From NCBI RefSeq assembly GCF_012849375.1, contig NZ_CP051684.1, positions 3,348,001-3,412,000 on the forward strand: a stretch of 64,000 nucleotides of DNA. The letters run 5' to 3'. Each line of letters starts with the position of its first letter. Within the stretch, counting starts at the first letter, position 1. The notes under the pieces were generated by a model that worked only from the letters and a program-made list of their open reading frames with translations, was not told where the DNA came from and searched no databases. The position numbers and the translations under genes are program-made. The DNA comes from Duganella dendranthematis. Lineage in GTDB: Bacteria > Pseudomonadota > Gammaproteobacteria > Burkholderiales > Burkholderiaceae_D. This document shows, in pieces, positions 55,091-55,845 of this stretch.

Positions 55091-55118
55091 AAAAGGCAGC
55101 CTGCGGGCTGCCTTTTTT
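55091..55118 (+). terminator. Rho-independent terminator of erpA
   Basis: Stem AAAAGGCAGC and GCTGCCTTTT around CTGCGG, followed by further T residues, about 18 bases after the erpA stop. Confidence 0.9.
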
Positions 55119-55127
55119 CAGGTCTGA

Positions 55128-55174
55128 AGTCTAAAGCGATCTAGGTTTTATTCTGCTTGGGCAAAGATTAGACT
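55128..55174. repeat. TTTAGACT motif copies at the 3' end of the orphan gene
   Basis: AGTCTAAA (55128-55135, inverted) and TTAGACT (55168-55174, direct, covering the stop codon of the orphan gene). They match the motif of the upstream array, so the gene has the same motif at both ends. Confidence 0.6.
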
Positions 55175-55620
55175 GACTGAGATTGTTTCTGTTTCTCAAC
55201 ATGTCGCCTATAATCTGCAGCGCGAACCCAGTAGTCCTCACCCGGAAAACGGAGCCAGATAAAACGCCATCCATTGCGGCCTTTCGTGTGCCGATTGGCG
55301 AACATCGAGGGCGTCAAAGATCTGCCGTCGTCCATGCGTATGCGGTTATGGGTAACTTTGGCAAATTCCTGGGAGTGTTGATAGTCGGTCCGTAGTCGGG
55401 TTCCATCTGGAAGAAAAACATTCTTCCATTGAAATCCGTGCATAGGCGGGCCACTCCTGCGTAGCGCCAGTCGTTCGGTTTCTACCGTCAGCCAACGCTG
55501 AACAAGTTCTGTCACGAAGGCGCCTGTTTTTACGCCTGGTCGTGTCTCCAGTAGATGAAATTCCAGCTCCAGAAAAGTGCTGAGCGGCAGGTGTACTTCG
55601 GCCATCGGTACGTGCGTCAT
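55168..55620 (-). CDS. Orphan hypothetical protein, possible DNA-binding
   Basis: 150 residues from ATG at 55620. The N-terminal ~55 residues (LPLSTFLELEFHLLETRPGV, KTGAFVTELVQRWLTVETER) resemble a ribbon-helix-helix-like unit by eye; the rest has many aromatic and basic residues (MHGFQWKNVFLPDGTRLRTD; GRNGWRFIWLRFPGEDYWVR). No family is recognised and no membrane helix is seen. Base composition is clearly lower in GC than the neighbours, suggesting transfer. A regular AGAC-motif array lies directly upstream, and copies of the motif lie at its 3' end, so autoregulation by the protein is a reasonable guess. Confidence 0.6.
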   Translation of the reverse strand: MTHVPMAEVHLPLSTFLELEFHLLETRPGVKTGAFVTELVQRWLTVETERLALRRSGPPMHGFQWKNVFLPDGTRLRTDYQHSQEFAKVTHNRIRMDDGRSLTPSMFANRHTKGRNGWRFIWLRFPGEDYWVRAADYRRHVEKQKQSQSV

Positions 55621-55640
55621 GATGAAGTCCTTTCGAAACG

Positions 55641-55810
55641 AGTCTAAAGGTTGGACCTCAGAACGGGATTATGGTTCGGTTTAGACTTTCGGCCTCGAAA
55701 AAAAGACCGGTTTAGACTTGTTGGCCAAATTTATAGACGTGTTTAGACTTTGATCACGCAGTTTTAGACTTTACTAGACCGCTTTATAGCGAAATAGACG
55801 GTTTTAGACT
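55641..55810. repeat. Helically phased AGAC (TTTAGACT) motif array
   Basis: Nine AGAC cores start at 55683, 55704, 55714, 55735, 55745, 55766, 55776, 55796 and 55806, spaced 21, 10, 21, 10, 21, 10, 20 and 10 bases, i.e. a 31-base unit with paired sites one helical turn apart. Five are TTTAGACT in full, and one inverted copy (AGTCTAAA) is at 55641-55648. The region is AT-rich and has no gene. The layout suits a cooperative DNA-binding protein or an iteron-type element. Confidence 0.8.
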
Positions 55811-55845
55811 GAGTTCTGATTTTAGGCCCCCCAGACGCCGTTGCC

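Follow-up and report, generated by a model that had tools for sequence, protein, structure and literature searches.

A stretch of 64,000 nucleotides from Duganella dendranthematis (contig NZ_CP051684.1, positions 3,348,001 to 3,412,000), here called the window, carries a compact module of 0.72 kb made of one small gene and arrays of short repeated sites. The gene encodes a protein with a predicted ribbon-helix-helix (RHH) domain followed by a RAMA-like domain, and its upstream side is occupied by phased AGAC sites (Table 1). One gene flank of the module is erpA (NCBIfam NF010147, score over the cut-off) and the opposite one is a FAD-binding, monooxygenase-like gene (Pfam PF01494).

Table 1. 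Features of the module in the window.
Feature	Position	Strand	Evidence or remark
Inserted module (gene and arrays)	55119..55845, limits approximate		Empty site in relative G007
Open reading frame, 150 amino acids, RHH and RAMA-like protein	55168..55620	-	115 homologues at E<=0.01, structure models, fold comparisons
Predicted RHH-like DNA-binding domain, codons 1-60	55441..55620	-	Predicted local distance difference test score (pLDDT) 91.9; fold comparison
Predicted RAMA-like domain, codons 61-150	55171..55440	-	
Main array of nine TTTAGACT-like AGAC sites, spaced 21/10, upstream side of the gene	55680..55810	+	Geometry common with GTCTA-clade relatives
Promoter-like core CCGAACC...GGTCCAA, of the TTGAAC-N16-GTCTAA type	55651..55679	-	Degenerate pattern
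Inverted exact TTTAGACT, between promoter-like core and start codon	55641..55648	-	Many GTCTA-clade relatives have an inverted site near -29 to -26
Possible remnant of an array downstream of the gene	55128..55174		Inverted TTTAGACT at 55128, direct ATTAGACT at 55167

The inserted module

The erpA region was compared in 11 relatives, and one of them, G007 (locus L094), has a module-free junction: the erpA terminator (window position 55118) is joined to the 3' end of the monooxygenase gene (55836 onward) and the DNA of the module is absent. In nine of the 11, the right-hand flank is unmatched within the compared stretch. Another relative, G012, holds an open reading frame of 333 amino acids (L095:449-1450) in the same intergenic site, for which NCBIfam yields weak FliH-like tail matches only, far under the cut-off. 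The erpA-monooxygenase intergenic site may be an insertion hot spot. An earlier reading of this DNA made from its letters only (the sequence-only reading) had placed the gene in a low-GC island. The GC content is indeed lower at the module (about 0.51-0.54, versus at least 0.67 immediately to the right), but the island is only a mild one.

The phased array in the window

On the + strand, the AGAC cores start at 55683, 55704, 55714, 55735, 55745, 55766, 55776, 55796 and 55806. The sequence-only reading had described nine cores, mostly of one motif, alternating 10 and 21 bases apart. All nine were found and they are phased, but the order of spacings is 21, 10, 21, 10, 21, 10, 20 and 10, with a single 20 among the 21s, and TTTAGACT is exact at five of the nine sites (55680, 55711, 55742, 55763 and 55803), the rest being only TTTAGACT-like. 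Eight of the nine cores read TAGAC.

It should be emphasized that the array is unusual by its clustering and its phase, whereas the plain number of sites is unremarkable. Thus, eight TAGAC copies lie in 55630-55815, versus 0.45 on average and never more than 4 in 5000 local dinucleotide shuffles, and one 180-bp stretch at the array holds nine TAGAC or GTCTA, versus at most three in 60 shuffles of the window. The phase concentration R reaches 0.966 at 10.33 bp, and none of 5120 random placements matched the observed maximum phase over three periods. By contrast, the window has 13 occurrences of TTTAGACT with at most one mismatch for a shuffle mean of 10.4, and 26 of 100 shuffles reach 13.

The motif had also been reported at the 3' end of the gene, and it is there, as an exact inverted copy (55128-55135) and a direct copy with one mismatch (55167-55174). 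The sequence-only reading had overlooked a further exact inverted copy (55641-55648), which separates the array from the start codon. A fuller downstream array is present in several relatives, and the window copy seems to keep at most a remnant of it.

In the family, a core of the form TTGAAC-N16-GTCTAA sits in the gap between mirrored sites. A degenerate pattern for it, written after the sequences had been read, is found in 41 of 84 upstream regions of the family and in none of the control stretches, of which 82 were far-upstream and 84 downstream. The core resembles a promoter or a dyad; in the window, a simple scan gave no sigma-70 match to it.

The protein and its two predicted domains

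The RHH (MetJ/Arc) superfamily is defined by a strand-helix-helix fold of about 45-50 residues, whose dimers insert a two-stranded sheet in the major groove, and the monomer model of the N-terminus has this fold, as the sequence-only reading had anticipated. In the VIA fold comparison of this model, the first 10 of 12 rows are RHH proteins; omega is the second row, and NikR and Arc are also among them. By sequence, Pfam RHH_1 matched four of 61 family members (best E 0.0063), and the best match in a PDB sequence search was a CopG/Arc/MetJ antidote (E 0.17).

RAMA is the best fold row for residues 64-145, and Pfam RAMA (PF18755) matched one of 32 C-termini of the family, weakly (E 0.025) and below the cut-off; within the own genome, no sequence matched RAMA at E<=10. 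With either model, Foldseek alone matched nothing under E 0.001, and its best full-length rows are unrelated proteins. DUF2924 is related to RAMA. This domain, known from MPND and from the C-terminus of CcrM, is here predicted in fusion with an RHH domain, and the protein has no methyltransferase, nuclease or MPN domain. According to excerpts of PMC9963953, RAMA of MPND and CcrM touches the DNA backbone without base specificity.

None of eight family proteins passed the Pfam cut-off, nor did the single one compared with NCBIfam; five gave no convincing match in PHROGs (best E 0.09) and four no match in PADLOC, and on this last result a defence system was rejected. No transposase family matched the window protein or the scanned paralogues in profile searches. 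The literature search returned no description of an RHH-RAMA family among the matches listed and no paper combining RHH with RAMA, subscription papers being mostly outside its scope.

Distribution of the family

At E<=0.01, 115 homologues of the protein were found. The own genome has six family members; a seventh match (L007, E 0.08) is at chance level and was dropped. Among genomes of the same genus, 34 of 36 (own included) have a match at 1e-8, with up to 14 per genome, while none of the 24 genomes of other families in the same sample does. In an order-wide sample of 250 genomes, a match at 1e-6 is present in ten, namely the own genome and nine others with one each. A scan of named genomes, from which the best 80 of 145 relatives were retained, led mostly to Oxalobacteraceae, and also to Castellaniella, Roseateles, Nitrosospira and Stenotrophobium. 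Plasmid and phage searches gave no match to the family, and none of 14 pattern matches in viral contigs was confirmed as a relative.

The ratio of non-synonymous to synonymous substitution rates (dN/dS) lies between 0.10 and 0.35 in all 19 chosen pairs of close members, and these proteins are therefore maintained by selection. Some copies look broken or truncated (L018, L039, L040, L046, L058 and L061); rows under 130 amino acids were excluded from the tree. In one paralogue of the own genome, L003, the array is present and a proline-rich N-terminus replaces the RHH-like domain.

Arrays across the family

Each of the five other members in the own genome is adjoined by an upstream array whose core differs. 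For the family as a whole, 84 upstream regions were scored by a per-locus motif search against the best of 12 shuffles, L033 and L041 being left out as their upstream regions were too short. The search exceeded the best shuffle in 66 of the 84 (26 of the 37 GTCTA-clade regions and 40 of the 47 from other clades). Phased arrays beside homologues, which the sequence-only reading had named as a check, are thus found next to many of them. In an earlier count of 6-mer motifs, many GTCTA-clade loci did not stand out, owing to the degeneracy of their sites.

The spacing of repeated 5-mers, counted after removal of similar upstream regions, reveals a geometry in whole helical turns. In 18 non-redundant regions of the GTCTA clade, the repeats seen (and expected) number 65 (5) at lag 10, 55 (4) at 30 and 86 (4) at 31, with an excess also at 20/21 and 40/41. 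In 30 non-redundant regions of other clades, they are 166 (14) at 10, 52 (14) at 12 and 81 (13) at 20; lags 22, 30 and 32 are also in excess, and neighbouring lags such as 21 and 23 show a smaller one. In many members outside the GTCTA clade, mirrored sites surround a gap, at about -106, -94 and -84 on one strand and -39, -29, -19 and -7 on the other. Comparable distances from the start codon are occupied by differing sites (TTCTAT, TACTGA, TTCTCT and others).

The site sequences of the subfamilies (GTCTAA, TTCTAT, CCCTAT, TACTGA, TTCTCT and GCCTCG) have nnCTnnWW as a common template. On average, this template gives 3.54 phased sites per region, versus 0.35-1.58 for nine other dinucleotide cores; a TC core gives 3.36, its sites overlapping those of nnCTnnWW. 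The nnCTnnWW count is reached by at most one of 100 shuffles in 43 of the 84 regions and by more in the other 41. Among the seven members of the Castellaniella/Nitrosospira clade, L076 alone is above shuffles in the motif search, and L076 and L086 stand out by the template count. Taken together, the upstream regions of the family largely preserve a whole-turn geometry, in many cases with mirror symmetry around a promoter-like core, and the site varies by subfamily.

Arrays also occur downstream: at L029:2439-2595, five copies of TTCTAGAC follow the gene at a 10-base spacing and end shortly before GAATACCC.

Dispersal of the module

Family genes occupy many different places in the genomes of related soil bacteria. 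The neighbours of the window gene (ErpA, ArgC and the monooxygenase) were found at none of the 80 named loci, with flanks of up to 2 kb. Within single genomes, units of 0.77-1.58 kb share 84-95% identity, their flanks are unrelated and the alignment stops at the unit. Such copies number five in Pseudoduganella flava, four in Duganella sp. 1411 and two each in Rugamonas sp. CCM 8940, P. ginsengisoli, a Massilia metagenome-assembled genome and strain AB_14. Some loci are common to several species at one site (e.g., L065/L071/L074, 4.3 kb), so some copies are old.

In several GTCTA-clade units, the gene has an array on either side, with short inverted repeats outside the arrays. The five copies of P. 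flava (L024-L027 and L040) represent a unit as long as 1.57 kb that has GGTTCTYCACGGATT at its ends and in which subterminal inverted repeats of about 70-90 bp surround the RHH-RAMA gene; L040 is internally deleted. The P. flava end GGTTCTYCACGGATTA, with one mismatch allowed, occurs three times in two genomes, each time at a family element: L027 has it at both ends and L038 at one, and the remaining P. flava copies carry more mismatches. Two Rugamonas species have, between common flanks, family genes (L050 and L083) that belong to different subclades and differ in their operators, which suggests replacement at one site.

Limited searches for a helper insertion sequence (IS) yielded none. Matches to TGGGTATTCCAAATC with one mismatch number seven, in six of 40 genomes of the genus; six of the seven loci have GTCTA/TAGAC arrays, and three of these six contain family genes (transposase families were not searched there). 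An ISL3 helper was considered from ten transposase matches in three genomes, and neither end was found within three mismatches at the six of ten loci examined. At the site of L029/L023, ten relatives offered no clean empty site and no target-site duplication was established.

Proposed operators within one genome

Two array patterns were searched in the own genome (6.53 Mb). All four matches to TTTAGACN{2,30}TAGAC lie inside the window array; the backward control of this pattern gave 25 matches, so pairs of TAGAC are generally uncommon in this genome. A triple AATAG pattern gave 11 matches versus one in its control, at four paralogues and at one gene-less place, L169:1453-1554 (own genome C1:1120252-1120353). 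There, AAATAG-type sites are spaced 12-10-20 and 10-12 like those of the family, with no family gene in 3.2 kb; this array is possibly a relic or a trans target of the paralogues L004/L005. An AATAG array at the ISL3 copy L204 was rejected, as it consists merely of short flanking matches.

Interpretation and rival explanations

From these observations we infer that the protein is likely an autorepressor of RHH-RAMA type with a private, diversified operator, carried by a mobile module. In the compact module inserted between erpA and the monooxygenase-like gene, dimers formed by the RHH part would bind the TTTAGACT-like sites, whose whole-turn spacing puts them on a single face of the helix. These dimers would assemble side by side, cooperatively, over the array and the promoter-like core and, by covering this core, are proposed to repress their own gene, while the RAMA-like part would clamp the DNA backbone through a sequence-independent contact. 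The site nnCTnnWW, with its four variable bases, would have diverged along with the protein on an array geometry largely kept, so that subfamilies would have their own operators. It is attractive to think that coexisting copies thereby escape each other's repression, but this escape would not be strict, because alike copies coexist in P. flava and in strain 1411. A strict incompatibility, with one copy per specificity, is disfavoured by these five and four similar copies, respectively, whose upstream regions are alike.

The sequence-only reading had proposed either an autoregulated DNA-binding protein or a remnant of a replication or mobility element. The first proposal gains from the RHH-like predicted fold, the array of the gene itself and the arrays at homologues. 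Of the second, a mobility element gains support from the empty site in one relative and the dispersed copies, but an iteron or plasmid origin was rejected, with no Rep-like family match, no plasmid or phage match and no confirmed relative in viral contigs. The RAMA-like domain, the paralogues and the change of site on a constant geometry were beyond the reach of the sequence-only reading. Some results weigh against a mobile autorepressor with its own operator: 18 of the 84 upstream regions have no array above shuffles, limited searches found no helper transposase, and a target-site duplication is not established at the window site, where comparison with the empty site yields no more than an imperfect overlap of 10 bases.

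The last two of these results also bear on a different view of the arrays, as transposon end sites that the protein would bind at both ends of the module, aiding an outside transposase or a mechanism of its own, with promoter control being secondary. Several GTCTA-clade relatives do have a direct array to the left of the gene and an inverted one to its right, enclosed by short outer inverted repeats of type TGGGTATTC, and the dispersed copies are discrete. However, the arrays of other clades lie upstream of the gene and are mirrored around the promoter-like core, some copy sets lose homology near the stop codon, and neither the protein nor the scanned paralogues match a transposase family, nor was an IS with matching ends met in the limited searches. 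We regard end sites as unlikely.

A centromere-like or nucleoid-organising site, on which the RHH protein would form a partition or DNA-bridging complex like ParR-parC or omega-parS, seems very improbable. ParR of ParMRC is an autoregulated RHH protein whose repeats measure about one turn, and the rank of omega in the fold comparison agrees with such a role. According to PMC9426499, partition proteins such as ParR bind DNA and recognise repeat arrays in a family-specific manner, and excerpts of PMC9499535 describe arrays that overlap promoters in pSM19035. Here, however, the arrays are chromosomal and mirrored, they vary in position between genomes, the protein has a C-terminal RAMA-like domain, and the family has no plasmid or phage match. 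Furthermore, the five proteins scanned around the window gene (an ArgC-type semialdehyde dehydrogenase, ErpA, the FAD-binding protein, a lactonase-type propeller and ribosomal S9) include no motor protein, so that no adjacent nucleoside triphosphatase gene of the ParMRC or ParABS kind was found among them. Least probable of all, in our judgement, is that another host factor binds the array while the protein acts elsewhere, the two merely travelling together. The existence of gene-less arrays would fit this, as would L003, which has an array without an RHH part, but a common host factor leaves unexplained that the site sequence varies with the protein subfamily.

The autorepressor reading can be extended to a new class of single-gene mobile elements, in which the RHH-RAMA protein and its terminal/promoter arrays would be the whole element, with no transposase of its own, and the nnCTnnWW code would diversify on a fixed geometry so that coexisting copies escape mutual repression as orthogonal repressor-operator pairs in one genome; this extension is doubtful. 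If binding is as inferred, the family would be an evolutionary series of repressor-operator pairs of largely fixed geometry and varying sequence, from which an RHH recognition code could be read in sequence pairs and directly tested. The family adds a predicted pairing of RHH with RAMA and a dispersed gene family for which, with the proteins searched, Pfam and NCBIfam gave nothing over a cut-off, PHROGs nothing convincing and PADLOC nothing at all.

Comparison with known systems

The module resembles miniature inverted-repeat transposable elements and passenger-carrying ISs by its discrete repeated units with inverted ends (e.g., the 1.57-kb unit of P. flava). It differs from them in that no helper was found, the compared genes are under purifying selection and the arrays are made of presumed protein sites.

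The RHH autorepressors omega of pSM19035, MetJ, Arc and NikR are also close, as they combine an RHH domain, here predicted, with short repeated sites near their own promoter. MetJ sites are contiguous boxes, and the box size is 7 or 8 bp in omega and MetJ. The comparison with MetJ made by the sequence-only reading holds as an analogy, but the met box AGACGTCT has no occurrence in the window and no site sequence is conserved across the family. The omega sites are contiguous heptads, according to excerpts of PMC9499535. In the family described here, unlike in these autorepressors, the sites are gapped at whole helical turns (10/21 or 10/12), the protein has a C-terminal RAMA-like domain, and many paralogues with differing sites are dispersed as mobile units.
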